A stretch of 64,000 nt of DNA from Capitulum mitella (taxonomy: Eukaryota > Arthropoda > Thecostraca > Pollicipedomorpha > Pollicipedidae): NCBI GenBank assembly GCA_030062745.1, contig CP099839.1, positions 22,991,324 through 23,055,323 of the forward strand. The letters are read 5' to 3'. The notes beneath the pieces are model-generated. The model did not search any database, was not told the DNA's origin, and saw nothing but the letters and a program-made list of their open reading frames with translations. Numbering within the stretch: the stretch's first letter is position 1; the number at the start of each line of letters is the position of its first letter. Shown piece by piece: positions 1-35,735 of this stretch. Both the position numbers and the translations under genes were made by a program.

Positions 1-880
1 CTGCTTATTCAGCCGAGGAAACTTTCAGGTGACCTGACCTGTGGTGTCTCCCATACTGTGTGATGCGCTGACCAGGGTGGGTCCACACTCACTTCTGGGA
101 CAGCCAGGCCGCCTACGCTTGGTACGAGCTGAAGAACACCACGTCTAGGGTCTGCATCCTGTGGAGTGTGGGTAGCGGAAAACTGACCGTATAGGTGTGG
201 TTAGCTCTTGAGAACTCCCATATTTCCGCGGAGATGAGGGACGAGTGGTTGTCCAGTACTAGGGCGACGTCATGTCCCTCGCGTGCCTCACTGATGCACT
301 GGAAGTGTTTTAGCCAGGCCTGGAACGTGTCACGAATCGTGCACCCGTTGTCTGAGACGGAGAAGATCGCTCCCGGAGCCGCCCCGCGCTAGAGCTGCCG
401 ACTGAGGTGTTTACGCTGGAAGACCATCTGCGGCGGGAGATGCACGCCTGACGCCGACACGCAGTGAATGGTGGTTATGTTCATACCCCTCTCCGCAGAG
501 GCCACCGTCCCAACGCGGCGTGCCCCCTTCGGTGACATGACCCTGGCTGGGCGTGGCACCGTGGTGTTTTTAGTTTCGTCGACGCTGTACGTTCGTCTTG
601 CACCGAATTCGTACTTGTTGCTAAGTTCGTGGAGCAGACTGTAGAACCGCTCCACAATATCCCTTCTGAAGCCAACAAGGCGACTGATGCTGGTGGACTC
701 TGGCGTTCTCATTGTGACGTCAGGGTGACGCTTTCGGTACAGTCGCATCCATTTCGTTCCGGCCATTCTGTCCTTGAACCCGTGATTTACTCTCCTCATG
801 TCAGCAATGTTAAACACTATGACGCGGATCTAGGTCTCGGTAAGTCCGTAGAACCTGGCGCTCATCTCATTGATGTAACT
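1..880 (-). mobile_element. pogo/Tigger-type DNA transposon, degenerate, cut by window edge
   Basis: The minus strand codes for the DDE transposase core of the pogo/Tigger (DDE_1) family. Around 817-389 it reads an AGTKWMRLYRKRHP-type helix region, then a VDETKNTTVP block near 590-553 that holds the first catalytic Asp, then a VGTVASAERGMN and VSASGVHLPP stretch. After a stop near 390 the same protein continues as GAIFSVSDNG, AWLKHF and VLDNHSS (near 262-236), the second catalytic region, followed by FPLPTLHRMQTLDV. At least two further stops follow towards position 1. Homology upstream of 817 (YGLTET) is interrupted by a stop. The element runs off the left edge, so its 3' end and terminal repeats are not seen. 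It is a dead fossil; the family call is based on motif order. Confidence 0.82.
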
Positions 881-6699: not shown

Positions 6700-6847
6700 A
6701 TGGCAAGAGTTTGCACCGGTCTCCTTGGGCGTTTGTCCTACGCAGCATTGCCGGCCGCCGCCAGTGTGTGCTTCATTCTTATCTCGTTTTATATCAAGCA
6801 TGGGTATACAACGTATACAACGTACGTCAAGCAAGTTGATTTACAAC
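6700..6847 (+). CDS. Candidate exon 1: type II membrane anchor of the VWC-GT31 gene
   Basis: An AG acceptor (6690-6691) is followed after eight bases by an ATG. The frame opens MARVCTGLLGRLSY and then has a hydrophobic helix (about ALPAAASVCFILISFYI) before polar sequence. That is the layout expected for the short cytosolic tail, signal anchor and stem start of a Golgi type II glycosyltransferase. A GTAAAT donor after 6847 leaves the codon in phase 1, which fits the phase-1 start of the VWC exon 445 bases downstream. A better-looking GTAAGA donor exists after 6893 but gives phase 2, and would fit only with another exon in between. The donor lies inside a perfect 10-bp-arm inverted repeat (6835-6857). 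Seen: the ORF, the helix and the splice-like sites. Inferred: that this is the true first coding exon. A longer open frame begins at 6529 but reads through the acceptor. Confidence 0.45.
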
Positions 6848-7291
6848 GTAAATCAACGTCTCTTTCCTTTAAAAACGTTACTGCAAGAGCTCGGTAAGAT
6901 CTATTAATCGTGCAGTCGGTAGTTAGGTCGTGTGCTTTGCTATTCGCAATTTAGCAAATCATGACACGTTATTTTTAATGTTCCGTTATTTAATCTTCGT
7001 CCAATGCGAGTAACTTTATTGACTACTGTGACGATCAAATACTAACGTGACGAGTACCAGAACCATGCACATGTTCTCAGGGCGTCTTTTGACTAAACGT
7101 TACAGAAAACATTCGCTGCATGACTTCATTGTAGGAAAGAGAAGTCACAAAGACCCTAGTAAAGGTGGACATCAGTAGCGATTTCACGCAGGCTAGCAGT
7201 CGCTTTGTATCGGCGACAATACTATTTGTCCCATTTCCGGTAGCCACTACCGTTTTTCATTGTCCTCTTACAGCAGCTTTGTCCGTTTCAG

Positions 7292-7425
7292 CCAGTACTA
7301 GCATCACCGACTGCATGGTGAGGGGTCGCCGCGTGCCGCTGGGAGAGACGGCTGCCTGGGGACATAACCAGGACGACACCAGGCGTGTTCACTCCTGCCT
7401 CAGCTGCGAGTGCACCGTGTCCTCG
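7292..7425 (+). CDS. VWC domain exon, N-terminal half (cysteines 1-4)
   Basis: The acceptor is TTTCAG (7286-7291) and the donor is TCG|GTACGG after 7425. The 134-base exon enters in phase 1 and leaves in phase 0. It encodes a TDC, a GRRVPLGE stretch, a W, a loop with QDDTRR, and HSCLSCEC. This is the C...G....GE..W....C..C.C pattern of the first half of a von Willebrand factor type C module. The second half is on the exon at 13326, whose start phase matches exactly. VWC modules are secreted or lumenal disulfide-bonded domains that usually bind proteins. Here the module would form the stem between a membrane anchor and a GT31 catalytic domain. The exon is GC-rich compared with its flanks. A decayed copy is seen on the minus strand near 37.85 kb. 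Confidence 0.82.
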
Positions 7426-7844
7426 GTACGGTCAAAACGCACAAGCCAGCGGCCTTAGTCCCGAATAGATTCATTGGCCTACGGCGGACGGCGGAACACG
7501 TTTTTGTTAGTTCTTTTATTTCATTTCTTCATTAGTTCCTCTGACCTTTGATGGGTAAACAGGAGGACCCTTCCATGGCTTGCGATCCAATTACGTTAAA
7601 TACCAAATTTAAACATTCGATCTAAACCCAATCACGTTGGAACACAGCACTCCCCATTATTCTTTTTTTTGGGGGGGGGGGCAATCTACCATTAGTGTCA
7701 GTATATTAAGCTCAGGATCTTGATAAGTGCAGCGAAGCTAGTGACTTCCATCAATGTCCTGGGTCACTTATATCAAAGGCTCAACTTTCGCCAAGTTGGA
7801 CGGAAGTTCCTGAGGACCCCCTTCGGTTTTCTGATGCTAGCTAA

Positions 7845-8320
7845 AAGAGGGAAAGGCGCAGAGGTACGAAACTTTTGGGTACCTTTTCATACGTCATAAT
7901 TACACTTTGTGTCAGTTTGCAACAGGGGGTCGCCTTACTGATGGGGCCAGATCAAGTAAGATCGTGTTCCAAAAAATGAAACTGGTGTAACATTTTGTGA
8001 AATGGAACGATTGAAATGAAGCTTGGCATATTGATATGACAGAACCAATGCAACAATTCTGCGATCTCGAGTTTTTCGGAAATATTCAGGTCGTTGGCAT
8101 TAGGTCAGCTGAACTTTGGCTTCTTTACCTTTGCTGTTGCAATTGTGGAACTGATTCGGCGGCTTTAAAGCTTAGATACACGAGTACACCCCCTGCCTCT
8201 CACGTCATTATCTGTCTATCATTCTCACTATCACTTTCACGTCATTTGCGAACATAATTAAACACCTGACCTTTGATCTGAGGTTCGGTTACGTTTCATA
8301 CCAAATTTTCAGGCTCGCAA
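7845..8320 (+). mobile_element. Diverged copy of TTAA family A
   Basis: Landmarks of family A recur in order. TACGAAACTTTTGGGTACCTTTT is near 7866 and an ACTTTGTGTCAG stretch is near 7905. TGCAACAATTCTG followed by TTTTTCGGAAAT and a GGTCGTTGGCATTAGGTCA stretch is at 8048-8107. These match 17815-18062 in the intact copy. The ends are not cleanly defined; a GGGTTAA end at 9351-9357 may belong to a related element. Confidence 0.6.
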
Positions 8321-9269
8321 CGGAGTACAGTTCTTTGGTTTACTGTCCTGGAATGCTCTATATGTGTTTGGGAAGCACTAATATGTTTAGAGCTTATTTG
8401 CCAAGGGTGACACAATCCCGTTTGATCCAAGCTGACCTGATTTAGCCTTTTAAAAGATTATATTTGTTTCAAAGCGAGCACACTTTGTATGGCCCGAAAT
8501 GATAGAAGTATATCCATGCCTTCCTTCTGTGCAGTTTGTACTGCCCTAATATCCTTATTTTCGGTCGCGGAAATAGCGACCCTTGACGTCAAGAAAATAA
8601 CCTACCCCTAAATGTTACGCTTTTGCGTCGCGGCGGTACCCGCCACCAGGTATCTGAGTGACGCACGTGAAACATGATTTGGATCACGGGTTTCGTGATG
8701 TGAAAGGGACATTACATGATTCTATGTTATCAAATGTTTTGCTGTACCGTGTTTGATCAATGATAATGCGATAGATCATACGACAGGCACCAGAAACGCC
8801 AGACGTATAGGAATCAATAGGGTGACCTACGTTGACTTTGTTTGACTTTTATATGTTAACTGTCGACTTCACATGCGGGCCAGACACATCTGCAACGTAT
8901 TCCAGCCAAGACTCATGCTTATCATTCAGAAAAACGAGATTTCTGCTATTACAAAAAAATACGGTTATTCGCCTCATTTTCCGCTTTCCTTGAAATGATC
9001 AAATTTCGGCCCCAAATGCCCTTTTTCCACCTCACATAGGTAAATCAGGCCTTCTTTTTACTGTTTAACTACTTTTAAGCCACGCAGAAGCCTTGTTTAT
9101 AAATGTTTTCCGCCAGAAATGCCAACCAAGTAATTTGACATAAGATAGCTCTGGTGATCGTAACATTGACATTTGGATTATTTGGAGAAGTCCGGTACAT
9201 TCTTTTGGTTTCAAAAAGGGCTTTCCGATGGTGATTTTACTTTTTCTGTGGGACTTACTGTTTTCAAAG

Positions 9270-9357
9270 CGACATGAAATGTGGGGGAGGGGGGATTTCC
9301 ATAAACCGCCGGTCCAGCGTAGGTGGATCGGGAGGCCGGGCCAGCGAGGGTTAAGTA
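9270..9357 (+). mobile_element. Right end of another TTAA-type element
   Basis: A G-rich block followed by GTAGGTGGATC, GGGAGGCCGGGCC and a terminal GAGGGTTAA resembles the GC-rich subterminal and GGGTTAA ends of the TTAA elements elsewhere in the window. The same block, decayed, is seen at 6160-6245. The left end was not located. Confidence 0.45.
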
Positions 9358-10891
9358 GTCTATAAGAAGAAAACTAAAAGATTCCTTTGCCTTTCAGATG
9401 TGACGATGAAGATGAGTGCCATACTTTCCATGAAATTGTGATAGAGGGAGATGCAATGTTCATTGACAAGACGTCATGTCTTGCAGATGTTGTTAGCCAT
9501 TCGGGGTTAAATAGACGGAATGTTATCCGCGCCGTTTTTGTCCGGGTTTGGGCAAAACAACGAACTATTGCATGACTGCAAGGACTGTTTTTGGTTTTAT
9601 TCATAACAAGTTGCCAACACTTCGGAACGTTTGTTTATTGGTAGTGGTTCACACCGTGTTTCATAGCGGTGGTTAACATGCGTTCAAGTCTAGTCTTTCG
9701 TGTGGTGCGAACATATAACAGCTATGAATGGTTGTTGTACAGCAAATTACTCTTCGTGAATAACATGATGTGGATCACTCCGACCTTTGTCAGCTGGAGG
9801 ATGGGCGGTTCAGTACGGTTGATCCTAAGGTTGAGTACTTGGATTTACTCCCTGGTGCATTGCGATTGTACGGACTAATGTTTGGTTGTGTGTCAGTCAG
9901 TTTGTTTTTAGCCAGGGTTGATATTTCAGGGGGCAAAATTTGTTCTGCCACTTGCCGGTTAAGAGGGTTTAATACCGGCATGAAATGGCAGAAAAGGCCG
10001 AAATTATTTTGTACCCATTAAATGTTTCCCGTATATTGAAAGTATCCTAAACCTCCAAAATGCCCCAATATTAGCTAAAAGTTAAATATATGGAACATGC
10101 AAATGAAAAACTGACCGCCCTTAACAGAAATGGATGTATTGCAGACAAAATACTCTGCAAATTGTCCCCAACCTGCCAGTGAAAGTGTTATGCATAGGAA
10201 CAGGGAGGGGCAGTGCACAGCTATGAAATAATGCACAGCTAGCATGCAGCTTAAATTATGTGAGCACATAGCCTTAAGAACATGTAACATGGAAGTTATC
10301 AAGTATCAGCCTTGAGGAAGAATATCAGTAATGTTGTGATCCCTCAAAGCAGTTAGGATTTTGAACAAAAAATTCTATAAATATTGACGGACTCAATACC
10401 TACCTCGTCTTATATCATATCTTTATGTTTCGTCTACATTCATCTTGCAGGTGCCCGTGTGCCGTAGTCATTGTACCATTTCACGAGGCCAATCTTGCAT
10501 ATTCCTGCATAATGATTACAATGTATGCAATTTTGTATGCCATGTGCTATGTTGTATATGTTAAACACTATGTTGTGTGCTGTATACTACATACATTCTT
10601 CTGGTTATTCTCATGTCCAAAGCTAGGACGGCTCCCATTTTATTACAGCTACCTAGCTAATTTATACTACGTATCTAAGACATCTTGTGGAAGTGTTCTG
10701 AGCATGGTCTCTGCTGCTTTCCTGAATGACTAGGAAAGTGGCCAGCCATGTCACTATGCCTGTCAAGATTGCACTCATGAATATGTTTTGGAATAATTTA
10801 TATTTTGAGGTAATCTGTTAGTAATCGGTAGTGGTGTAGTGTCTGAATGATAATTAATACCTTGTTAATGAAATTTAAACAGTCTACTATA

Positions 10892-12400
10892 CGAGGTGCG
10901 ATCAAATAGTTCCGAGACAACGCCTATAAAAAGCATAAGACGTACTTGGTTTAAATTTGGGCGTCATCCCCTTCGAATTAGTCACCCTGCGTAACGATGA
11001 ACCTCTCCATCGCCTCTATCGCGCCTGGAACGCTCCCTGGAAGTCCAATTCTTTAGGCGTGTCAAGCACCATCAGCGATTCGCGCTGGATCATCTCCACA
11101 GTGCCAAAAGGGCGACCCTTCAGCTTGAGCTTCATCTTTGGGAAGAGGAAGAAATAGCAAGGGGCCAAATTCAGCGAGTAGGGCGGTTGGGGAGCGCCGA
11201 TGATGCTGCGGCCCAAAAACTCAAGCACTTTCAACGTATTGTGAGTGGGCGCGTTATGTTGCAGCACCCAGTTGCCGTCGCGCCAGTGTCCGGATCGTTT
11301 GCGCTGATCGTCCTCCTTTAGATGCCTCAGGATGATGCAGCAGAACCTAACACTGACAGTCTCCAACTGTTGAGGACGAAACCGCGATGCGTAACCCCCA
11401 AATGTCGGAATAAAATGACAAGCATGCTCTTCGTCGTGTTCGTGACCTGCCTCACCTCATTCGGTCCTGGGGATCGTGGCTTTTCACTGCGGAGACTGCT
11501 GTTTGGTCTCTAGGTCGTTGCCGTAGACCCAAGGTTTGACACCGGTGATCATCCTCGACATGAAGGTTGGGTCAACCCGAGCCTGTTGTATGAGATCCTT
11601 GCAGGCTTCGACACGGTGCCTCTTCTGCTCGAGGTTCAGGAGCCTCGACACGAACTTGGCAGCGACGCATTGAAAGTAGACGAAAACATTGTGGCCATGT
11701 TTGCTATTTTGGGCTCAAAATGACGCACAGAGACAAAAGAGATACGTTTCAGTATTAGAAATAGTTATATTTGGACGCCATTTTGACAGCGATTTGCATT
11801 TTTACGTTGTAGGATTCACCCATAATGCATCCGTCTCCCCAGGATTTTCACATATTTTGGCGATTGTTACATCTTCGTGCCTAACCAAAAATAGATTTCT
11901 TAAGACTGTGGCCGTTGACAACGTTTATTTTTGCCATGGCCAATGAAATATCGACATTTTTGATCTTTTGCTACATCTTAACACCTAGTGCAAAATAACT
12001 TTGGCCACACTAGACGTGAGGATTGCTTGAAATGGTACAAATGACATGGCGGCGATGTCACCCGCTCCTTTGATGGTGATCTGACGATTCCGACGCAAAA
12101 TTCGTCCAATTTCTTCGACCTTTTCCGGGAATGTGCTCGTTGAGGGTCGTCCTGACCTCTCGTCATCCTCCAGCGACGTTCTACCCCTCTTGAAACGCGA
12201 GTACCACTCGAAACACCTCGCTCGGTTCATAAATTTATTGCCGTAGGCCTGCTTCAACATTTCAAGGGTCTCGGTTGTCCGTTTCCCGAGTTTGACGCAG
12301 AATTTGATGTTTGCTGTAAGCTCAAGTTTTAAGTCCATTCGGAAATCGCAAATGGGCCGTTTAACTTGGTCACAAAAACGCGTTTAAGACAGGTCCCAAT
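10892..12400 (-). mobile_element. mariner transposon, broken and carrying a nested MITE
   Basis: On the minus strand the N-terminal half (12338 to about 12004) encodes MDLKLE, KFCVKLGKRTTET, an AYGNKF..RARCFEWYSRFKRGR helix-turn-helix region and DDERSGRPSTS, all typical of mariner. The second half (about 11686-11016) gives AAKFVSRLL, EQKRH, KPWVYG, then LQHNAPTHN with the middle catalytic motif, PPYSLNLAPCYFFLFPK and the usual mariner C-terminus. Stops and frame changes interrupt the region between 11370 and 11510. A terminal repeat CGAGGTGCGATCAAATAGTT begins at 10892 just after a TA target base pair. The matching right-end repeat was not found, so the 5' limit is approximate. A MITE splits the coding region at about 11686-12003. 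Confidence 0.9.
11686..12003. mobile_element. MITE inserted in the mariner coding region
   Basis: Mariner coding similarity stops after a QAILTS-like peptide and resumes at AAKFVSRLL, with about 318 bp of foreign AT-rich sequence between. The insert has imperfect terminal inverted repeats (TTGTGGCCATGTTTGCTATTTT on the left, and on the right the complement of AGTGTGGCCAAAGTTATTTT). TAGACG occurs next to both ends (11677-11682 and 12011-12016 region) and may be the target duplication. The family is not identified. Confidence 0.6.
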
Positions 12401-13325
12401 GTTCACAGCAGGACGCCTTGTGGCATACTGACGAATGACGATTACTGCTCGCTCCTGCTGCGCTTGCCTTGACCACCTCGCATTCAGTTTCTTCGCGACA
12501 GGGACAGTGTCGGAGGAGATAGATTGCATCTTGTAGTTCCTATCACACACTTTTTTCTATCAGATTCAGATGTGTGACTGTGCATGCGACTCTGAGCCAC
12601 AACTACTTTTTCACTGTGCTGTTCAAAGAATGAATCTAATCCCACTGCTTCTAAGCAGTTCAGTATGTACTGCCATTTGTGTCAGTTTCCTTGCTTGAAT
12701 TACTTCCTCGTACCTTGTGGTGACGTTTTCCACGTATCTGATACTTCAGCTTGCACGAATAGTTGTTTCGCTGTGAATCGTTTTTGCAAGCATACGACAG
12801 TGTTTTCATCAAGAAATTTCTATTGATGTTTTTGCATTTTTAGCCATTTTTCATCACCCCAATTTTTAGCCTGCCGGTTTTATCTGGTTAAAACAGGTTG
12901 GGGAAATCTTTTTTTCAGCCAGCTGCTACCAACGTTTCGTTCATCCATTTCATATCTTAACTCGACAGTCGCGAAAGCAGTCATTTATTGTGCATCGTTT
13001 ACAAAATGGCATCTGAGTGAAAAAGCCGAATTTCCACCGTTCCAGATAACTTGTTTTTGTCATTTGCAAGAACATTTACCAATCTCTCCTTTTTGGACGT
13101 GATTTGTGAGATCTCCTTCTCGTAAGTAGATGAACTCAGAGTGGAACGGTACAGTGCTATCAACATTATCTCTTCTAGTCTTCGGGCAGAATACATTGCA
13201 TTATCATTAGAGAAAGTATGCTGTGGATGAGGCTTCATCTAGAAGAGTGTGGAACGATATACAGCATACTCGACTATCTTTCATCCACTTAACAGCTGCG
13301 TGACCCCAATGGTTTTTGCTTTCAG

Positions 13326-13455
13326 GCAAATGACGCTGCTCGCGCAGAATGTCAAATGTTCAGCTGTCCGGCGCACATGTGCCGTGCGGTGAATGAGAAC
13401 TTCGATCCAGCGCACCAGTGCTGCGCCATATGCGGACCGGTTAAAGCCGATACTG
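13326..13455 (+). CDS. VWC domain exon, C-terminal half (cysteines 5-10)
   Basis: A TTTTGCTTTCAG acceptor precedes 13326 and ACTG|GTGAGT follows 13455. The 130-base exon enters in phase 0 and ends in phase 1. It encodes AEC, FSCP, HMC, then NENFDPAHQCCAICG, the C..C.C..CC..C ending of a VWC module. Joined to the exon at 7292 it gives the canonical ten cysteines and no stop. Its phase-1 exit fits the phase-1 start of the GT31 exon at 21354 (the shared codon would be GAG, Glu). The opposite strand is also open but lacks splice signals. A decayed copy lies on the minus strand at 36907-36785, and the intron sequence GATTTGTGAGATCTCCTTCT (13101-13120) is preserved base for base near that copy. Confidence 0.85.
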
Positions 13456-16400
13456 GTGAGTGGTGTGATCCCCTTAAAAAAAATGTTCTTTAACTCGTCC
13501 ACACCGATGGATTGCCTTTGCTTCCATGAAAAAATAAAAGAAAAAAGAGTAAAGGACGAAATAATAGCAGGCATGCGCATGCTGGTTGCCGTAACATCAC
13601 CCCCGCACGACGGGTGGCGCGTAACCCGCGCCCAACTGGCAGCCGGCGCCATGCACGCCCGACTGGGGGAGAGGACGATTCTCATAAACAGACTGTGTTG
13701 GTCTGGAAAACATCAGTTTTGCTGTTTTCCATACTAATTTCTCGCAAAAGTCTGTAAGCTCCAAAACCGTATTTGATTAACAGCTCCTGTGTACACATTC
13801 ACGACTGTTAGAAAGCATGGGCCTGCGCAAGCCAATGATGCTTCATGCATTACTTGTATATTTATGACACTGTTTATTTGGTAACAACCTATTTATTGGG
13901 TTAGTCTTTACAGAACTAGTGAGCACTTCCCTTTGGTGATATTATTTCTCATATCATTACCAAGAACACGGGCGAACTTTTCTAAACTGTACACCGAGTT
14001 TCATATGACAATAGCATCAACACGCAGACATTAGTCACCGTGTTTTTGGACTACAGTGGATGCACATTCACCGTGAAATTGTTTCACGTTCAGGGTGTTC
14101 AGAAATATAGTTGTTGGATCAGCTCGGCTAATACATGTTGCACACATTGAACAAAAACACATCTTTTGGGTTTCGGACACATAAGAAATTGATATTATGC
14201 ATGCTTCAAGGATAACCTTTAACAAATCACAAGTCTTGGTTTCTGCATTCCACGGAAGTTTTGAGCATATAGCTTCCATCATATCTGGCAGTGATGAGAA
14301 CAAATAGCTGTTGATTATGTAGTTCTGAAACTATCAGTTCTGCTTCAGTTATTGGCGTCTGCATCTTTAAATTCTTTTGTCTTCGGAGATGTACGAATAT
14401 ATCAATCAGTTTGGAAATTTGCGTGACAATTGCAGTCGAATCTTTACATACAGCATACAAGGCATGTAAACCACCTGGAGAAAGTATGATACATTGATTC
14501 CATTCAATTATGTTTCAGATTAATCGAAGAACGTCATTCATCTCACAGTCATATCTTTTTATTCAGGAGCATCAAACCTGAGACAAATCAGATATCACTT
14601 TGGCATGTGTATCACCAGAGCGCTTGCAAGTCCAGCAAGGTATCAAACGGCACAGTAACAGAACGATTTGATTATGTATACCAGTTGTCATTGCCAGTTA
14701 ATGTTATTTGTATCAGATGAAGCGTAATTAACGAGACGCGTTGCGAAAGGCAGCTCCTGTATGCTTAGAGCTCAGTCATCTTACTAAAAGGTTATTATGG
14801 AATGCATGCTTTCACGTGTATCAAGGTGTAACTCCTTAACACTATGTTGTAAATTTATACACTGTAAACACATTTCGACGATGTCAAATTTTTTAACCAC
14901 GAGCCATTGTTCGAAATACAAACAAATGGGTTGTCAGCACACGAGTAACTAGTAAACAACTCAAATACTTGCCATCATCGCTATCGTCTTGCCCTGTGTA
15001 AGTAAAACGAACAAAGAATAAGGAGTCGATCGTAAAAATAGCAAGGATCTTCATCGTAAGTGGATAACGAGCTAAACATTTGTTGGCGCATAAGAGACGT
15101 TTGGATGCTCGTCCTCAACACAAACTACGTGAGCTCGTTGAAGGGAGACGAAAGCAACGTCCACATGGAGTTCGCGTATTAGTCATGACAAGGGCAAGTC
15201 CAAGCAGCGTTTATAACTTCTCGCCAGAATTCAAACGCGATTTTCTAAGACGCCATTTTACAGACAAGCAGATGCGCAGTGTTTCTAGTGCGTGGCCAGG
15301 ATTTGGAGATGGCAACTGTTCGGTATTTGATGTTTTTGTGTTCGGATGTATTGTGGGATGCATATACATGTTTTGATCGGTGTTACCGATGTCAAACTGT
15401 ATCATGGCTAAGCTTTGATGGTCACTGGGACTGAAATGCAACTACAGATCATCTCAGATCAATGTTTCGAGCGGCGTTTGTGACCCACTTAACCGTTGCT
15501 CCACAGTAAGGCAAACACAGGTGAGGGCAAATTCACAGGAAGTTGGTTAATTTTGCAGGTAGCAGACATGCTGCACAGGGAAGATTACGGGTTTGTTGCC
15601 CAATAATTACATATAAGTATAAGATATCGAGTAGGTAGTTTGTGCATATATAAACTACCTACTGCATCTGTGACAGGTAAACAGACGAAAGTCGTTGTGG
15701 AAAACAGTATGCTGTATGTCTCTCACCCTTAAACCATAATAATGGTTTGCTGACCAGTGCCAATTTTTTGGAGATGCTTGCAAAATCTTACCTAAGCTAG
15801 TCTTACCTCACCCTGGGAATATTTAGATGATATGCTGCAGAAGGACTGTTCTGTCTCCATGTGCTTTTTGGCCGGAAAACAAAGCTGAACATTGATATCC
15901 TGCATGCAAACACGCACCATAAAAACCTATGATAGGCCCAACAATAGTTTTTTTTTTTGCAAGAGAAACAAGGACGAAGCTTATTAAAATTGTTCAGATT
16001 CTCCATTTTTCTGGCATGAAGCAGGGATTTTACAACCAAACAGCATTGAATGGAATGTATACCGAAATCATGGAAGGATTGCCCTGGGATTTCGGTCCAG
16101 ATTATCACATTTGATGGTGTGCTGCAGTTATGGCATGTTTGTGGTGTAATGCCTGATATATTTTGCTGTAGGTAATTCTGCTTGTACGGAATTTTTGGAG
16201 ACCAGCAAAATTTCTTCTGTATAGCTAAAATTCCATGTATCCGAACCTCTTAATGCATATTCTGACTTCTAGGGACTGGCAAATTCATTTCCATATGTCA
16301 GGAATCTCATATCATCAGATTCCATACATGGAAACTTATCAGAATAAAGCGCTTTTTGTCAGTTGGGTTGCACGATACCTAGTAGGCTGGATTAATTCAG

Positions 16401-17171
16401 TACATTCTGTGATCCATCCCAGAACCATGAGTTTGACCTCGATCGGTTGCACATGCTGAGTTTGGTATCTTTCAGGTGGTGCTCCAGCACCACCTGACTA
16501 GCAATACTAGGAGCAAACCTGACAAGCAATGACTAGGAATAACTAGCAGCACTAAGCAAAAAATATAGCACCTAAAAAAGCACCAGGTGAAACACACATA
16601 ATACTTTGTAATAAGGAACAAAAAATTGTTTACTTTTTACTGGAACCACAAATTATGTGTCTGTCAGCTTTTTCAACTAAAATAATAATTAGTACATGTC
16701 AGCATTGCATTTCAGGCATCATAAAACCACTATTACGACAACTTCCCCACAATGTACGCGCTAAGCTAAAATCTTACTGTTGACTGTATTTCAGTCAGTT
16801 TTGTATATTTTAGGGTGGCTCTAAAGATTTGCGGGCATATTCTAGAATTTCAGGAAAGTTGTGTGAAAGTAAAGGTCTCCCGGGAATATCTGCCAGAACT
16901 GGTGCTACGCAGTTGGCCTACCTTGCTCAAGTTTTGAGAACAGATTCTAATTTGGTTGCTGCCCATGATGCCTGTCATACCTGAACCATTGTTTGCATCG
17001 CCATTAAATTAATCAAGTTTAAAACACTGTCATTCCCATATTACGACTGTTAAATTCAAACGCATCGTATATGATTCCCAAAGACGCTTGACTTCAAAAA
17101 TTTTAATCGTCTTGCTAGAAAGGTAGAAAACGCAAAGAGAATACAAACGCACACACTCTCTAATTTTTCCT
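13456..17171 (+). other. Intron between VWC and GT31 exons, part 1
   Basis: Mostly AT-rich sequence without recognised families. Overlapping minus-strand open frames at 14460-14227 (77 codons) and 14303-14031 (90 codons), and a plus-strand frame at 15080-15376 (98 codons), have protein-like composition. I recognise no domain or matching splice frame in them, so they are not called as genes. A short perfect hairpin lies at 16473-16496, and a TA microsatellite at 17172-17193 abuts the next element. Confidence 0.4.
16473..16496. repeat. Perfect 24-nt hairpin, 11-bp arms
   Basis: The arms are CAGGTGGTGCT and AGCACCACCTG with a CC centre. It sits at the start of a short stretch rich in GCA/CTAG words (16500-16590). 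It may be the end of a decayed mobile element; no partner end was found. Confidence 0.6.
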
Positions 17172-17198
17172 TTATATATATATATATATATATGGCAA

Positions 17199-17614
17199 CA
17201 GGGGCGTCGATTTCTGTAATGGTCGGGGGGGGGGGTGCGAGCCGAGGGTCCGACAACCTAACCGCCCCCAAAATGTGGGTTTTTCAACGGATTTAGCCCA
17301 TTTTATTTTGATCAGCGGAAATTTACATGGTTTTTTGTTGGTATTTACGAAACAGAAATTTCATTTATTCCCATATATATAGGTATATGTATTATATCGA
17401 AAAGTTAGGAAGATAGGTACATTGATTTAAATTTTATTCCTTACTTTCTCACTATGTCTTGTCTATTGCAGCCGTTATTTTTATTATTAGTACTCATTTC
17501 CCTTTAAAACCTGCAGAAAATATTGGGGAGGGGACCCAAACCAGCATTGGGTCGGTCCAAATCCACATGAGGTGTGCCATGGCCCCCTCAAAAGAATAAA
17601 GATCGACGCCCCTG
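17199..17614 (+). mobile_element. hAT-type MITE, family M1, 416 bp
   Basis: The element begins CAGGGGCGTCGATTT and ends in the complement of CAGGGGCGTCGATCTTTATT. It is flanked by near-identical 8-bp sequences TATGGCAA (17191-17198) and TATTGCAA (17615-17622), the target-duplication length of hAT elements. The body holds a G-run next to the left end and no transposase. A second copy with the same ends lies at 45465-45912 in the opposite orientation. Confidence 0.88.
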
Positions 17615-17732
17615 TATTGCAACCAATTTTGAGAAGCGCCGAAAGGGCGAATCAGGTAATTATTGGCACTTTGATGTTTCATTTACGTGCAAAATAACCG
17701 CCAGATTTTCCTCGGGTGATGCCGATTTTTTC

Positions 17733-18956
17733 TTAACCCGTCCCCGACTGGGGGGGCAGTTGACTGCCCCCCTGAGGTTTTTCTGGGATTGCGAGAGAAC
17801 GAACTAACACAGAGTTACGAAACTTTGTGTACCTTTTGCTCCATCAATTTTACGTCTCGTGTCAAAATTTTCACCTCAGGTCAGGCCAGGTGCCTAACCT
17901 AGGTCAGGTCAAACAGACCTATGTCAAAAAAAGTTTAGCGCCCTCTAACTTTTTCGCAAAACAAGATATCTCAATAATACTTTCAGGGATTAATGACCGT
18001 GATAGATGCAACAAATCTGCTATCTCAGATTTTTCGGAATTTTCCGGGTCATTGACCTAAGGTCAAGACCATTTTTAAGACATATCGCCGTTTTTTCGGA
18101 AATTGACGGAGTATTCCATAACATTTTTAGTGTGGAGTGAAGCAGACATCTAGTTACCGTCATTGGGCAAAGTATCACTGACTTCCATTCATTGACCTGA
18201 GGTCGGGTCACGAATAACTGTAGTGGGCCAAAATGAAACGCCGTCAAAATCGACGATGAATTACTCAGAATGGGTAGAAAATGGCAGAACTAGCTTGCAC
18301 AGACGTAATTAATACTAGGAACCTCAAAAAGTTTGAAAAAGTAGCATATTTTGGACATAAACATACTCTCGCGAATAAAGCTCCGCCAACTTTGTAGATT
18401 GGTAACTAATCAATTTTTCCAAAATTTAAGCATGAGAAACCATCACAAGAACCACAAAAATCAATAAAATTGACATAGATCGTCTTTTTCGCGAAAATAA
18501 AGGAACGCTAAAATTAGCTCCCGTCAATTTGGTACACGCATACGGCCGCGGCGCACACTGACGGTTGACGGGAGAATTACGGTGTCTTTAACTCAACGTT
18601 TCGGCGTATATATTGAACAAATCTGGGGAAATTAGACGTAGATCGGCATCCGCGGACATTTACTTGTGCGTTGGTGCCTTTACCGATGCGGTATTGGTCA
18701 CAGCCCTTGAGATTCAGGCCATTTCTCGGTCTCATGCAGTCGGCTATGAGAAAACATATATAGGGCGTAAATTGGCTTACATATTATCTAAAACTAAAAA
18801 TGAGACCAGTTTCGAGCTCTACTCGTCACAGGCTTTCCAACGGTATGCTTATTTTTATCGTGCGACCAACCGTTCGTGAGATAGAGGGGGGGCAGTCAAC
18901 TGCCCCCCCCCCAGTCGCCGATGTTCGGGACGGACCGACGGTCGTGCGCGGGTTAA
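17733..18956 (+). mobile_element. TTAA-flanked piggyBac-type element, family A, copy 1 (1224 bp)
   Basis: It starts TTAACCCG and ends CGGGTTAA, the TTAA target and CCC/GGG termini typical of piggyBac-type transposition. Just inside the left end is a palindrome with arms GGGGGGCAG and CTGCCCCCC. A matching palindrome sits near the right end (about 18889-18912). The interior has no transposase and is rich in TGACCT/AGGTCA words. A second copy of exactly the same length lies at 34512-35735 in the same orientation. It is non-autonomous; no source element is in the window. Confidence 0.9.
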
Positions 18957-19019
18957 GTTACTCCCATCCCGTATTTTTTGCAAATTGCCAAATATATAGG
19001 TATGTATGTTTTTAATATA

Positions 19020-19497
19020 CAGGTGTCAGTTTTGGAGAATGTCCGGGACCGGGGACCAACCATCCCAAGACGAGGCCCGGTCTAGACTCAATTTTTTGGA
19101 GGGGCCGTCAATGGAAAATTGAAGGAATGTAGGTAAATTTCCTACAAGTGGCCTGGTTTGGACCCGGACCGACCCAAACCGAGCTTATGGCTGGGTCTGC
19201 CCGGCCCTGGCTTTGGCACCACAATGATAGGCTGAAGACCACTTGACTCAGGGGAGTGACTACGCCCTTTTCCTTATTCTGTGTATGGTTGGGAGGCAGT
19301 GGTGTCGAAACCAAGACCCGGCAGGCCCAACGGAAAGCCCGTTTTGGGCCCGATCGGCCCCAAACCGGGAAGCTTGTGGAAAATTTACCCATTGCGCTTC
19401 ATTTTCCCTCTGGCTTCCCTCAAAAAGTTGGGCTTGGACCGGACCTGGTTGGTCCCCGGTCCGCACCGGTCCCGGAAATTCTCTAAGACTGACACCT
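19020..19497. mobile_element. Terminal-inverted-repeat element, about 475 bp, unclassified
   Basis: The left end (AGGTGTCAGTTTTGGAGAAT, then CCGGGACCGG..GGACCAACC) is repeated in reverse at 19450-19497 (GGTTGGTCC..CCGGTCC..ATTCTCTAAGACTGACACCT). The inverted repeats span about 45 bp each. The interior holds GGNCC-type repeats that create long open frames on several strands; these are not genes. No clear target duplication was found. The CAGAGGTGTCAG form of the right end resembles hAT termini. Confidence 0.7.
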
Positions 19498-21100
19498 CTG
19501 TGGCAGGCTCCCACAGTTCAGGGGACTCCCGCCGACTGAGTACTTGGCGAAGAACAGGCAGCCCGTGCGGCAGCAGTTTAACCCTAAAGATGAAGGCTAA
19601 GTTCGGGACAAATATACGGAACAACTGGAATGCGCCCTGGATCAAAGGTATTTCGTCGGTGACGACAAGATCCTGGCTGAAGCAGAGCTACCACTGACCA
19701 CTGGCGAACTTGCTGCAGCCGAACGAAATATATGGGGACCGTGAGCTATGCTATACATCTAATTAAAAAAAATCGTTCATGGCGTTGGACATGAGTCGTT
19801 CGACTAATGTTCGTTCGTTCGGCAGCCAGATATAAAGGGTAACGTGAATTTCGCTGCAAGGACACGCTTAGACAATAAAGAATCGTTCATAGAGTGTTGG
19901 TGTCCGATGCCATGTCGGCTTTACAGAATATACTTCTGACCGTTTTTGTCGTGTGTTTGAAGGCATGAAGCAACAGACTGCCGAAAACCACTACAGCTGT
20001 AAAAATTTACGTTACAAAGGAGACCCCGGTGGCACACATCGATGTTGTGCCTTGTAACCATTTACATGCATGGGACGCACGTCGTACGCGGCCTTATCCT
20101 TACATGGGTGTTCCTTGTTTTTTTTTCAAAAACGAGCACAAAGAATCTCGTTGTCAGAAGCATGCAGGTACTTGGATGTCACTGGTAATGGCATTACTAT
20201 TACATGGTAGATTGTCGTAGATATCACGCAGGCGAAGCAATCATTCATAGATCGCTCGACTAATTACAAGCGCTTGGGTGGTTGAAATACAAGAAACTCG
20301 TCATAACAACGACCCAAAAGGTCGTATTCGAACGAGGCAAAGAATATGCAGTTTTGCGGTAAACTCGGATGGTCGTAAATCTTGCAAGCCCCTGTCGAAA
20401 TGAGTTTAGTGTATCAAGACCAGCCTGCCTTGGAAATAAGTTTCAATATACACTCACAGACAGACACTAGCATCTGTGGCCCACATTATTTACATATGTT
20501 CAAAAACGGATTCGGGTTGATGGTGGCAAATTCATAAAGTAATAGAATTAGCTAAAACTGACTTACCCCTCTGAGTTATTTTAATTCACGTATAATAAAA
20601 AATGTTCTTTTGTCATAGCCCATTAAAAATAAGATAACCTGACTCAGTCTTCAAATCACGCACAAAATATACTTGTAGAGAATCAGCACGAATATTTTCG
20701 TATTCAAATGCCATCGCAGACACAATGATTCCTTTGCTTAAATAATGTTTTTCCCTAGCATCAATGAAAACGTCACGTTTCTGCTTTGGAAGAAACGTTA
20801 CACAACGGCAAAGCACTTCTACATGGTCGATAAATGGGCGGAGCGTAAACGCCCTCTTTTTCGTCACTCGACGGCGAACCAATCACGGCGCGGGATGGCC
20901 ACGGCTTTGGTTGTAACACGTTTTCGCCCACATTGAAGGTCGCGACTAACCACCCCTGACACAGTCCATGCTTACCCGAGCACGATATTGCATTGTGCTG
21001 TGCTTGATCATTACTCTAGTTGCATGGGACATTCGTAATTTAGAGGGCTGTCGAATACGCTAACAAGTATTTGTTACGCTGGCGAGTTAGCCTCGATCGT
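19498..21100 (+). other. Intron remainder before the GT31 exon; possible coding fossil
   Basis: Straight after the inverted-repeat element, two frames read as protein-like text: PPTEYLAKNRQPVRQQFNP near 19528-19590, then, after a frame change, YTEQLECALDQRY to AAERNIWGP, which ends at a stop near 19741. I cannot assign a family, and it may be a transposon coding remnant. The sequence from about 20970 onward is alignable with the inverted copy near 31.6 kb. Confidence 0.35.
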
Positions 21101-21353
21101 CTTGTCTCTGGTCTTGGCATTTTCGAGTTACTTCGACCCTAGAATACTTTTCCGTGGAATACTTTTCTTTAGAATACTTTCCGCCGCTTCTCACTGAGAA
21201 TTGAAAGCAAAACCATATTTAGCCTCAAGGTTAAACATGTCCCTACTTTCAACTCTGCTTTCAACGAGCTTCAAAAGTTTGAAGCTCGTGGCTTTTGCTT
21301 TAAGACCTGGCCATTACCCTGAACGCTCCTGACGCTTTTCTCCCTTGTCTCAG

Positions 21354-22374
21354 AGCGACCACCGCTGATGCAGGCCGTCGACGACTCCATCCCTCTCACA
21401 CGGGACGTCTACCAGTCGTCGTTCCGTCACCTGCCCTCGTCTCCTGTGCGCCGACGGTGGCGGGGCGCCGGTGTCTCTGCTGGCAGTGATCTCGCGGCCC
21501 CGCGCCGCCGCTCGCCGCGCTCTCTTCCGTCGCCTATACGCCACGGAGGCGGCCAGCCACGGCCTCCACCTGCTGTTCGTGCTGGGCCGCGACGCGCCCC
21601 TGCTGCGACCCATCAACGCCCCGACGGAAGACGAGCTCGAGGACGAGCACGAGGACGAGGACGTCGGGGCCGCGGCCGCCGCCGCCATCCGGCGGGAGGA
21701 CGCGATGGAGGGCCCCGGCCGACTTCGCCGCCTGGCAGCGCGGCGTCGACGCCGAGGCGGCCCGCTTCGGCGACATCCTGCAATCGAACGTGACCGAGCA
21801 CTACTTCCACCTGGGCCTGAAGACGCTCAGCCTGCTGGACTTCGCGCGCGCCCGCTGCCGCCGGCTGCGCGTCGTCGTCAAGACGGACGACGACGTGGCG
21901 CTGACGGTGCGCCGGCTGGCCGAGGCGGCGGCCACGCGCGCGCCGCTCGGCGGCATCCACGGCCGGCTGTGCGCCGACTGCGGCCCGGTGCGCGTGTCGC
22001 ACCGCTGGCGCAGCGGCCGCCGCGAGTGGCCCTGGGAACGGTACCCGCCGTTCGTGCTCGGGCCCGGCTACCTGATCGCCGGCGACGCCATCGGGCCGCT
22101 GTTCCGGCAGGCGCTGAGCACGCGCTATCACCACCTGGAGGATGTGTTTATCACGGGCGCGGTGGCGGCGGCGGCGGGCGTTGCGCGCCACCACTGGCGC
22201 GGCCAGTGCGTCAACCACGCGCGCAGGGGAGACGTTTGCGCGCTGGCCCACTGCGCGATCTCGCACCCGACCGAGTACGACGATGACGGAGAGACGATCA
22301 GCGAGTTCATGTGGGCCGCCCGTAGGTTTGATATTGACGACTTGTGTGCTACAGATAAAACGCTGAATGGCTAA
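21354..22374 (+). CDS. GT31 (beta-1,3-galactosyltransferase-like) catalytic exon, two frame breaks
   Basis: The acceptor CTCCCTTGTCTCAG ends at 21353 and the exon enters in phase 1. It encodes QAVDDSIPLTRDVYQSSF, SLLAVISRPRAAARRALFRR (the family's R..R..W-type start), HGLHLLFVLGRD, an acidic loop, FGDILQSNVTEHYFHLGLKT, VVVKTDDDV (the metal-binding DxD motif), YPPFVLGPGYLIAGD and LEDVFITG, then stops with TAA at 22372. These are Galactosyl_T landmarks in order. Such enzymes add galactose or N-acetyl sugars from UDP-sugar donors in the Golgi lumen. The frame changes twice by +1. One change is near 21441-21444, where the inverted copy has one base fewer; the other is between about 21670 and 21722. 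All motifs are otherwise intact, so sequence error or recent decay are both possible. The exon is very GC-rich. The acceptor sugar and precise subfamily cannot be told. Confidence 0.9.
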
Positions 22375-23745: not shown

Positions 23746-24962
23746 TTAACCCTATTCCCGGCAGGGGGGGGGCGGAATCCGCCCCCCCTCGGGTTTTTTG
23801 CTTGCCAATTCCAGGCTTTTTAACGCAGTTTCACGAAACTTGGTGACTTTTCCTAGCTATTCCTTCTACGCGCCGTGACAAAATTTCGAAATTCTATTTT
23901 GCTCAGGGGCGGAGCCAGGCAACGTTTTTGGGAGGCACCTCAGGTCATTTTTGGCCATGTTGAGGGTAAAAGGAAAATGTCTGCCAAAAACAGAGTTTTT
24001 AAGATAAAACTTAAAACTTTATATGAATATATAGCTAAATAGTTGGGCAATGTGCATATATAATTTTCTTTATCTGAGGTCACTTTACAAGGTCAGGTCA
24101 AGGTCAAAAGTCAACATTTGTTTTTTCGCAATAATTTCGGTGCCGTTTTTTCAAATGCCAAACCCGGAATATATATGACGTAGAAAAATGCCCTCTACTT
24201 GTGTACCAAGTTTCAGCTTGATATCAGGTCGGGTCACGGAGCTATGACCTAAAATGTCAGTGCACGTACCCTACATCGCAAAAGCCAAAAAATGAATTTT
24301 TTGGAATAGAGTGAATTTAATCGATTAAAAACGTTTACAGATAATATTGAATGCACACGACATCATTCCAGGTGACCCCAAGGTCACTGGAGGTCATTTA
24401 AGGTCAAAGGTCACAAGTTGATCTGAAGAACGTGTGACCATGACAGTTCCCCCTTTTTTATGTCCCTGGCACCGCCTATGCTAACATTATACAAACATTG
24501 TAATGCGATTTGTACTTCTTTAGCATAACATGACTAGCAGAAGCTAAAAAAGTGTTTTGGCCTCTTTTGTTCATTCCGTTATTAGAAAACTAATCCCCCT
24601 ATTTTTGAAACCCTGTGAACGCCCATGAATTTTCTCAAAATTTCAAATTTGCATACCCATGGTAAAAGCCCTATCCATAATCTGTCGATTGATGCCAGTT
24701 TCATCGAAATCGGTCCATAAACAACGGAGTTATAAGAAGTCAAAAAGTACCCCCATTTTGACATTTTTGCCCCCCTGTATCCACAAATTTCAAAATTTTG
24801 AAAATTTCTTTTTATAAAAATGTAGTTCACGTCACGGCAAATCGATTGCCGTTTGTTGCGATGAAATCGGATAAGTAGTTCTCGAGATCTCAGGGGGGGG
24901 CCGAATCCGCCCCCCCTGCCGGGAATCGGCCATACCGTCTAGCCCTCCGGGAATAGGGTTAA
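23746..24962 (+). mobile_element. TTAA-flanked element, family B, copy 1 (1217 bp)
   Basis: The ends are TTAACCCTATTCCCGG and the complement CCGGGAATAGGGTTAA, a 16-bp perfect terminal inverted repeat including the TTAA target. Near-perfect GC palindromes (arms GGGGGGGCGGA and TCCGCCCCCCC) lie just inside both ends. The interior has no transposase and contains clustered AGGTCA half-sites (24090-24113 and 24370-24418), including TCAAGGTCA at 24098-24106. Copy 2 lies at 59515-60730 with high overall similarity, so the family moved relatively recently. Confidence 0.92.
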
Positions 24963-31049: not shown

Positions 31050-31277
31050 GCCCAACAATCAGGCGCAGGCCGTGGCTGGCCGCCTCCGCGGCGTGCAGGC
31101 GACGGGAGAGAGCGCGGCGAGCGGCGGCGCGGGCCCGCGAGATCACTGCCAGCAGAGACACCGGCGCCCCGCCACCGTCGGCGCACAGAGACGAGGGCAC
31201 GTGATGGAACGACGACTGGTAGACATCCCGTGTGAGAGGGATGGAGTCGTCGACGGCCTGCACCAGCGGTGGTCGCT
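31050..31277 (-). pseudogene. Decayed, truncated inverted copy of the GT31 exon
   Basis: Read on the minus strand, an acceptor TTTGTCTCAG ends at 31278 and the exon copy gives QAVDDSIPLTRDVYQSSF, SSLCADGGGAPVSLLAVIS, ARRALSRRLHAAEAASHGLRL in one frame, closely matching 21354-21575. Similarity ends before the DxD motif, so no catalytic domain remains. Intron sequence upstream is still alignable to about 31600, for instance CTGGTCTTGGCATT at 31440-31453 against 21111-21124. The copy lacks the extra C that breaks the frame in the other copy near 21442. It is a pseudogene fragment of the inverted duplicate. Confidence 0.88.
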
Positions 31278-31832
31278 CTGAGACAAAGGAGAAAAGCGTC
31301 AGACGCGTTCATTGTTCTGTCTGCGTCTTAGCAGCCAAGCCGCGGGCTAACAGGCTCTCAGAACTGGTCTTTGTTTCGCACTCCCAGTAAGAAACATTCC
31401 GCTAACCATTTCTTTCCGGAGCTTCAGTAACTCAGAAATGCCAAGACCAGGGGCACTACATTAGGTCCAAACGGCCAGCGTATGCAAGTCGTATGAATGA
31501 AACCACATATTTATCATACAGCCAACGTAGTAACTCAGCACAGGACCAATGTTACGCTCGGGAGAGCGTGGATTATGCTTTTGGCAGCAGATATTTTATG
31601 TCAGTTCAACCCTCGCCAGTACGCGCTGTTCAGCAACCGACGCAGTACAGGAAAGAGGGGTACGACTCTTCCCAGCATTTCCAAGCCTGACGTGCTAAAA
31701 CGACGAAACAAAAACAGATACGCACCTTGTTTTTTTAACTACACGATGGTATTTCGCTTGCCCAGTTTAGGCCACGCGGTGACCTATGGGACTGTTATTG
31801 GACTGTTGGATGCTATGGGGCCTACAGGGCAC

Positions 31833-34515: not shown

Positions 34516-35735
34516 CCCGCCCCCGACTGGGGGAGGTTAACCTCCCCGCTGAGGGTTTTTGTGAGATTGCGAGAGAACGAACAAACACAGAGCCACGAAA
34601 CTTTATATACCTTTTGCTTCATCATTTTTACACCTTGTGTCAAAGTTTTGACCTCAGATCAGGTCAGGTGCTTGACCTAAGTCAGGTCAAACAGACCTCT
34701 GTTCAAAAACGTTTAGCGCCCAGTAACTTTTTCGCAAAACAAGATATCACAATACTACTTTCAGGGATTAGTCATCTTGATACATGCAACAAAGCTGCCA
34801 CCTCAGATTTTTCGGAATTTTCTGGGTTATTAGCCTAAGGTCAAGCCCATTTTAAGACATGGCGTCGTTTTTCGGAAATTGACGGAATATTTCATAACAT
34901 TTTTAGTGTGGAGTGATGCAGATATCTAGTTACCGTCATTGGGCAAATTATCAATGAGTTCCAGCCATTGACCTGATGTCAGGTCACGAATAATTGTAGT
35001 GAGCCAAAATGTACCACAGTCAAAATCAGCGATGAATTACTCAGGATAGGTAGTAAATGGCAGAACTGGCTTGCACAGACTTAAGTAAAACCAGGAACTT
35101 CAAAAAGTTTTAAAAAATCGCGTGTTTTGGAACTAAACAGGCTCTCGCGAATGAAGCTCCGCCAGTTGTGTTGATTGGTAACTAATGAATTTTTTCAAAA
35201 TTTAAGCATGAAAAACCATCGCAAGAACCACTAAGATCAATAAAATTTACATGATAGGCTTTTTTGCGAAAATAAAGGAAAGCTAAAATTAGTTTCCGTT
35301 AATTTCTTACTGTGTACGGCTAGCGGAGCATTTCGCGTCAACAGCCGGCGCGAAAATTGCCGTGTCTTTAACTCAACGTTTCGGCGTATATATGGAAGAA
35401 ATCCGAGAAATTAGATGTGTATCGGCATTTGCGGACTTTTGCTTGTGCGCTGGGGCCTTTACCTATGCGTTATTAGTCACAGCCCTTGTGATTCAGGCCA
35501 TTTCTCGGTTTGATGCAGCGGGCTATGAGAAAACATCTATAGGACGTAAATTTCTTACATATTATCAAAAACTAAAAAATGGGACCAGTTTCGAGCTCTG
35601 CTCATCACAAGCTTTCCAACGGTTTGCTCATTTTTATTGTGCGACCAACCGTTCGTGAGTTAGAGGGGGGGCGGCCAACTGCCCCCCCCCCAGTCGCGCA
35701 TGTTCGAAACCGACCGACGGTCGTGCGCGGGTGAA
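34512..35735 (+). mobile_element. TTAA-flanked element, family A, copy 2 (1224 bp)
   Basis: It is the same length as copy 1 at 17733 and collinear throughout. The left end is TTAACCCGCCCCCGACTGG; the right TTAA has become TGAA (35732-35735). The left subterminal palindrome here has different sequence (arms GGGGAGGTT and AACCTCCCC) but is again a perfect palindrome. Confidence 0.9.

Follow-up and report, generated by a model that had tools for sequence, protein, structure and literature searches.

The 64,000-nucleotide stretch of the barnacle Capitulum mitella genome analyzed here (the window, part of contig CP099839.1) contains what is most likely one frame-broken copy of a barnacle family of type II Golgi beta-1,3-galactosyltransferases that carry a VWC-like module in the stem. 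From the N terminus, the predicted layout is a cytoplasmic tail and a stem, both short, with one signal-anchor helix between them, followed by one VWC-like module with ten cysteines and by the GT31 catalytic domain. The order of these domains, the conservation of exon phases, the presence of further family copies, the ten cysteines found in eight sequences, and the catalytic motifs can all be read from the sequences themselves. Residence in the Golgi, the reaction catalyzed, and the role of the stem are considered below as parts of a model.

Single proteins that combine the module and the GT31 domain

We searched 5.8 billion proteins with the joined window product, reading through its broken exon. 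Eight were returned, and three of these, P0001, P0002, and P0007 (Table 1), carry an anchor, the ten-cysteine module, and the GT31 domain in one open reading frame (ORF). The proteins P0003 to P0006 begin inside or just before the part encoded by the GT31 exon and are uninformative on the VWC module, and P0008 (Pollicipes) is an ordinary GT31 enzyme. A profile search with an alignment of four fusions recovered the same eight proteins, and a search with the VWC and start-of-GT region of P0007 found only P0007 itself among 1,880 candidates. The first two of these searches scored 8,000 candidates sharing most words, a scope that leaves room for fusions outside barnacles. The P0001 and P0007 contigs are probably spliced transcripts, since contigs shorter than 2 kb hold the whole ORF while the gene in the window extends over more than 15 kb. 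One protein with both domains in a related genome, proposed as a check by the initial annotation of this DNA, is thus available in P0002 of Amphibalanus amphitrite.

It could be argued that two neighboring genes are involved, one with the VWC exons and the other with the GT31 exon, given that the introns between exons 2 and 3 and exons 3 and 4 are long (about 5.9 and 7.9 kb) and that the window comes without RNA evidence. Yet three relatives carry both parts in single ORFs, and the two parts recur in the same order and on the same strand at seven loci of the genome, with the same phases at the six loci for which exons were modeled. We therefore reject this reading as highly improbable. The same two lines of evidence contradict the possibility, raised at the outset, that the VWC exons are spliced into a different protein. 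That a VWC-type module and a GT31 domain are combined in one membrane-anchored protein is supported by the three single-ORF relatives and by three intact four-exon paralogs.

Family copies in the same genome

These paralogs emerged from searches of the 477-Mb assembly of 16 contigs. P0002 matched seven loci, including the window, at 50 to 59% identity, and other matches were at 40% or less with two exceptions, the remainder of the window exon and a partial copy at 31 kb in the window. All seven loci carry both VWC exons 5' of the GT31 exon, on the strand that also encodes GT31. With the window VWC module as the query, five of the other six loci showed half-modules upstream (genome-wide E, 3.8e-4 to 0.35), both halves being found only at C1 17.09 Mb. 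Because similar E-values also arise at unrelated places (C2, 0.08; C9, 0.16), it is position and not the E-value that carries the other four. A cysteine-pattern scan of 20 kb around each GT31 exon located the two halves at five loci. One of these, the C15 9.78 Mb copy, has lost a cysteine and was detected only by a looser pattern; its GT31 exon is also frame-broken at the beginning. The VWC exons at C15 9.72 Mb were identified by blastn (89% and 92% to the 9.78-Mb copy); they are broken by several small indels beside an N gap, into which the expected position of the anchor exon falls, and the GT31 exon is open.

Complete four-exon genes with phases 1-0-1 and no internal stops are present at C15 15.89, 15.94, and 9.66 Mb, encoding 484, 484, and 469 residues, respectively; a TGA counted at C15 9.66 Mb is, by position, the terminal stop. 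These models consist of a 163-nt anchor exon (a length counted from a chosen ATG, longer in-frame starts being possible), VWC exons of 137 nt and of 130 or 115 nt, and a GT31 exon of about 1 kb. The VWC-like module is split between exons 2 and 3 as it is in the window. A point to be held against the phase agreement is that the splice sites of the paralogs were chosen by eye and phase checked, so that other acceptors of the same phase are possible. In a hydropathy scan, which does not separate a signal anchor from a cleaved signal peptide, a hydrophobic anchor exon with a strong phase-1 donor (scores of 5.4 to 5.9) was found in four of the six paralogs. At C1 17.09 Mb, exons 2 to 4 are intact and the scan revealed no anchor exon within 12 kb upstream. 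Since the VWC-GT31 arrangement is shared by three other proteins and by six further loci, it is not due to chance.

The C15 members form two clusters, one of three copies about 60 kb apart (9.64 to 9.78 Mb) and one of two oppositely oriented copies separated by about 50 kb (15.89 to 15.95 Mb). The clusters mix intact and frame-broken members.

The window locus: gene copy or pseudogene

In the window, AG/GT borders flank exons 2, 3, and 4, and the splice phases are 1-0-1, which upholds the exon coordinates claimed earlier (Table 1). The exon sum of 1,431 nt was likewise reproduced with the anchor exon ending at 6847 (148 + 134 + 130 + 1,021, less 2). The "two surplus bases" that had been subtracted to arrive at this sum are, as we find, two frame breaks within the GT31 exon, near 21.44 and 21.71 kb, after which the frame is open again (21715 to 22371). 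As assembled, then, the sequence does not support an intact gene at this locus, a point against the family reading given at the start.

The anchor exon is a further difficulty. A hydrophobic exon is indeed present where it had been proposed; its exact end is less certain. Starting from the ATG at 6700, the donor after 6847 provides phase 1 but is weak (score, 0.5), whereas a better donor after 6893 (3.3) is in phase 2, and exon 2 requires phase 1. Among the 3,958 GT sites scored in the window with a set of donor weights, about 8% score above the donor at 6847 and 1.4% above that at 6893. Exon 2's own donor at 7425 is equally weak (0.56; 8% of GT sites higher), so weakness alone does not exclude the donor at 6847. 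The window anchor resembles that of the C15 15.89 Mb paralog weakly (35% over 23 residues, E = 1.6).

Given an exon 4 that is frame-broken twice and an anchor exon that fits only via a weak splice site, the window copy is, judged from its sequence, a pseudogene or locally misassembled. The former would mean that the lesions are real, that no product is made, and that the family persists via its intact paralogs; we rate the chances of this as about even. Besides the two frame breaks and the conflicting phase of the better anchor donor, it is favored by the four other copies in this genome that are unbroken in the exons modeled, and by the frame break and lost cysteine at C15 9.78 Mb, which indicate that decay does happen in this family. 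On the other hand, dense indels in the VWC exons at C15 9.72 Mb, beside an assembly gap and next to an open GT31 exon, are what a locally inaccurate assembly would give, and this makes local assembly error a credible alternative; the window itself has no N. Moreover, the catalytic half of the window copy has kept its motifs over 219 stop-free codons, and in the tree described below the window copy does not have a longer branch than its relative P0001 (0.33 versus 0.36).

Table 1. Exons of the window gene, single-ORF relatives, and related or inserted elements
Feature	Position in window, or source	Strand	Length	Remarks
Exon 1, putative signal anchor (MARVCTGLLGRLSYAALPAAASVCFILISFY...)	6700..6893	+		3' end uncertain
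Exon 2, N-terminal half of VWC-like module	7292..7425	+	134 nt	Cysteines 1-4; phases 1/0
Exon 3, C-terminal half of VWC-like module	13326..13455	+	130 nt	Cysteines 5-10; phases 0/1
Exon 4, GT31 catalytic domain through stop codon	21354..22374	+	1,021 nt	Pfam Galactosyl_T
P0001	1,893-nt contig		503 aa	Fusion
P0002	Amphibalanus amphitrite		482 aa	Fusion; "uncharacterized protein"
P0007	1,721-nt contig		520 aa	Fusion
Truncated inverted copy, intron end and start of GT31 exon	31060..31311	-		94% nt over 253 columns
Mariner-type (Mos1-type) transposon remnant	11016..12383	-		Inside exon 2-exon 3 intron; not part of gene

Is the stem a VWC domain?

When joined, exons 2 and 3 encode one module with ten cysteines in the VWC order (C-x27-C-x2-C-x-C-x12-C-x4-C-x4-C-x12-CC-x2-C), in keeping with the original description of two splice-bordered exons, and in exon 2 a Trp precedes cysteine 2. 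All ten cysteine columns are invariant in the alignment of four fusion proteins and in the eight rows of a wider alignment, from which the C15 9.78 Mb copy (one cysteine lost) and the C15 9.72 Mb copy (VWC exons broken by indels) were left out. Two sequences have a Pfam match, the window module (PF00093; E = 0.0017) and that at C1 17.09 Mb, and in both VWC ranks first among the families.

Several results nevertheless tell against a full VWC identity. The Pfam scores of the two modules (19 and 16.6 bits) are under the gathering cutoff of 27.6 bits, and Pfam VWC did not match P0001, P0002, P0007, or the C15 15.89 and 9.66 Mb paralogs. A genome-wide VWC family search (E <= 1) listed 64 stretches, 34 of them over the cutoff and none at the seven loci, where the module is split over two exons so that such a search meets half-modules. 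Finally, a comparison by hhalign of the eight sequences with five solved VWC segments gave a probability of 53% (E = 1.4e-4), against 96 to 98% among known VWCs.

These data allow for the alternative that the stem is an unrelated ten-cysteine module that has converged on VWC spacing, in which case the enzyme would still be a stem-decorated GT31. The low scores just listed agree with this, as does the absence of the VWC Trp from three of the eight rows. Controls for the hhalign comparison cut both ways. When the non-cysteine columns were shuffled, 22 of 100 controls reached the real score, indicating that the signal is mostly cysteine spacing, whereas none of 100 did so when all columns were shuffled or, likewise, when the intercysteine segments were permuted. 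With the first four sequences, the probability was 10.7%, and 0 (columns), 1 (segments), and 56 (non-cysteine columns) of 100 controls scored as high; four single sequences gave 0.4 to 18.7%. Weak matches in single-sequence searches are also seen between real VWCs (collagen II versus chordin, E = 0.011), the Trp is present in all five rows from this genome, and VWC was the best Pfam family wherever there was a match. On balance, we regard convergence as unlikely. The cysteine spacing, the Trp of the members in this genome, and the top Pfam family on the one hand, and the scores under the cutoff on the other, lead us to name the module "VWC-like." The original designation as VWC thus holds for the order and spacing of the cysteines and falls short in the Pfam score.

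Searches of the PDB with the ten-cysteine profile and with a single sequence matched no VWC structure. The profile matches were nearly all coronavirus nsp10 zinc fingers (E, 0.016 to 0.77), with a further one to mt-SAF34 (E, 0.34), and the single sequence matched Mis18-alpha (E, 0.11); all were rejected as chance. An NCBIfam search yielded nothing informative.

The GT31 catalytic domain

There is much less doubt about the last exon, for which the proposed GT31 assignment with DxD and EDV motifs (here, TDDD and EDV) was corroborated. The frame at 21715 to 22371 matches Pfam Galactosyl_T (PF01762) with 92.6 bits (E = 3.6e-26; curated cutoff, 23), so that in the Pfam check of the exons this family passed where VWC did not. 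Scores are similar for the three single-ORF fusions (86.7 to 125.5 bits) and for the intact C15 15.89 Mb paralog (104.5 bits). The best PDB match is human beta3GalT5 (E = 4.4e-21). KTDDD (DxD) and EDVF (xED) are present in the window and invariant among the aligned relatives.

Donor and acceptor residues of beta3GalT5, with the numbering of PMC11969544, were transferred by hand onto the alignment of the window domain with beta3GalT5, His285 being placed in the relatives only by alignment position. Tyr128, Lys134, Lys154, Asp156 and Asp158 (DxD), Trp198, Phe213, and Glu242 and Asp243 (xED) are conserved in the window copy. Two differences detract from this agreement: Lys197, a phosphate contact, is Arg in the window and Gln, Ala, Ser, or Gly in relatives, and Asp126 is replaced by Glu in the window. 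The conserved residues support the view that intact family members would be active inverting transferases acting on terminal N-acetylhexosamine (HexNAc), with Gal as the likely sugar donor.

Family history and selection

In a maximum-likelihood tree of 15 GT domains (midpoint rooted; the window represented by its 219 intact codons and C15 9.72 Mb left out), the members of the barnacle family cluster together (98/99) and are separated from P0008 and human beta3GalT5. The cluster contains three subgroups, all with support under the tool's star: the window with P0001 to P0003 (85/87), C1 17.09 Mb with P0004 and P0005 (91/92), and four C15 copies with P0006 (94/95). P0007 sits on a long branch with no resolved place. 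As each of the subgroups, and P0007, include VWC-bearing members, the tree dates the VWC-GT31 fusion to before the duplications of the family.

Between the intact paralogs at C15 15.89 and 9.66 Mb, the nonsynonymous (dN) and synonymous (dS) distances are 0.278 and 0.534 for the VWC part (dN/dS, about 0.5) and 0.150 and 0.398 for GT31 (about 0.4). The ratio of about 0.5 suggests purifying selection on the VWC part that is only moderate. The closest pair, with few changes, has higher ratios (dN/dS pairs of 0.040/0.072 for VWC and 0.024/0.036 for GT31), and more distant VWC pairs are saturated.

Partial copy and repeats in the window

The initial annotation had also invoked a duplicate with the same exon order in support of one transcription unit. 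This does not apply to the inverted piece at 31 kb, whose match to the gene is confined to the end of the intron and the beginning of the GT31 exon and which was dropped as support; the true duplicates sharing the four-exon order sit elsewhere in the genome. In the window, tblastn (E <= 1) found no VWC exon other than exons 2 and 3, and a scan for the bare cysteine pattern found the full second half nowhere except in exon 3. The first-half pattern has further matches at 50.0 kb (+) and 63.5 kb (-), and a loose second-half pattern has extra matches at 26.8, 29.4, 50.1, and 54.4 kb. The 31-kb copy is unbroken at the position of the first frame break in exon 4, and its divergence from the corresponding window piece looks neutral (dN/dS pairs of 0.047/0.043 and 0.063/0.055).

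Of the mariner-type remnant in the exon 2-exon 3 intron, the helix-turn-helix (HTH) part at 11985 to 12383 matches PF17906 (Mos1-type HTH; E = 1.7e-8); the part at 11016 to 11456 has no Pfam match and is labeled mariner by position and eye only. A transposase remnant lies at the left edge of the window (113 to 829, minus strand), with a DDE_1 endonuclease match for 113 to 388 (E = 3.8e-8) and no Pfam match at E <= 0.01 for 389 to 829. Two dispersed repeats of about 1.2 kb were matched in pieces, with copies that are 82 to 94% alike (17776 to 18956 and 34554 to 35735; 23746 to 24962 and 59515 to 60730). Phe-Gly-Phe-rich open frames at 55884 to 56312 (+), which has no Pfam match, and 56652 to 56966 (+) could be simple-repeat DNA.

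Possible function and relation to known systems

A literature search with most subscription journals outside its scope found no paper on a VWC-GT31 pairing, and the source of the A. amphitrite protein labels it "uncharacterized," so the architecture is apparently undescribed, as had been claimed. A term search of the Pollicipes genome paper (PMC8917513) gave no occurrence of galactosyltransferase, glycosyltransferase, or von Willebrand. A positively selected barnacle "galactosyltransferase" appears in PMC7077169 and cannot be tied to the VWC-GT31 family.

We envisage that the protein would reside in the Golgi and transfer galactose, or possibly another sugar, from a uridine diphosphate (UDP) donor in beta-1,3 linkage to terminal HexNAc by an inverting mechanism as in beta3GalT5. 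VWC modules elsewhere bind ligands, and by analogy the presumably disulfide-knotted VWC-like stem probably binds acceptor proteins or partners; a defined set of secreted or matrix glycoproteins might be modified as a result. More specifically, these enzymes may be protein-specific beta-1,3-galactosyltransferases whose stem docks either on TGF-beta-type ligands or on particular secreted matrix proteins, such as components of the shell, the cuticle, or the adhesive, a proposal that we put forward tentatively and consider rather unlikely. If true, it would mean that a ligand-binding VWC module is used as an enzyme-targeting device, with glycans written on chosen proteins. The role of the stem is directly testable by deleting or swapping it, and barnacle glycobiology gains a defined, expanded enzyme family with intact members for expression.

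Compared with human beta3GalT5 and other GT31 enzymes of the B3GALT1/2/5 type (PF01762), the barnacle family shares membership in GT31, the DxD and xED motifs, and the acceptor-stacking Trp and Phe. In contrast to beta3GalT5, whose stem is plain and not known to carry a cysteine module, it adds the ten-cysteine module, lacks an equivalent of Lys197, and in most rows has an acidic insert before the catalytic motifs. With the VWCs (PF00093) of collagen II, chordin, and NELL2, the module has in common the ten cysteines in order, the CxxCxC and CCxxC motifs, and, in the members from this genome, the Trp in the first half; it differs from them in scoring under the Pfam cutoff, in a longer spacing between cysteines 4 and 5, and in occurring singly before an enzyme, whereas these VWCs are found in secreted proteins. 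Golgi enzymes with an extra module are not without precedent: invertebrate peptide O-xylosyltransferase carries a WSC domain, GALNTs a ricin-type lectin domain, and plant GT31 enzymes a galectin domain, and such accessory modules are thought to steer the enzyme to its acceptors. The barnacle family carries a different, VWC-like module, and its fusion to the catalytic domain would make acceptor choice part of the enzyme itself, via a ligand-binding domain.

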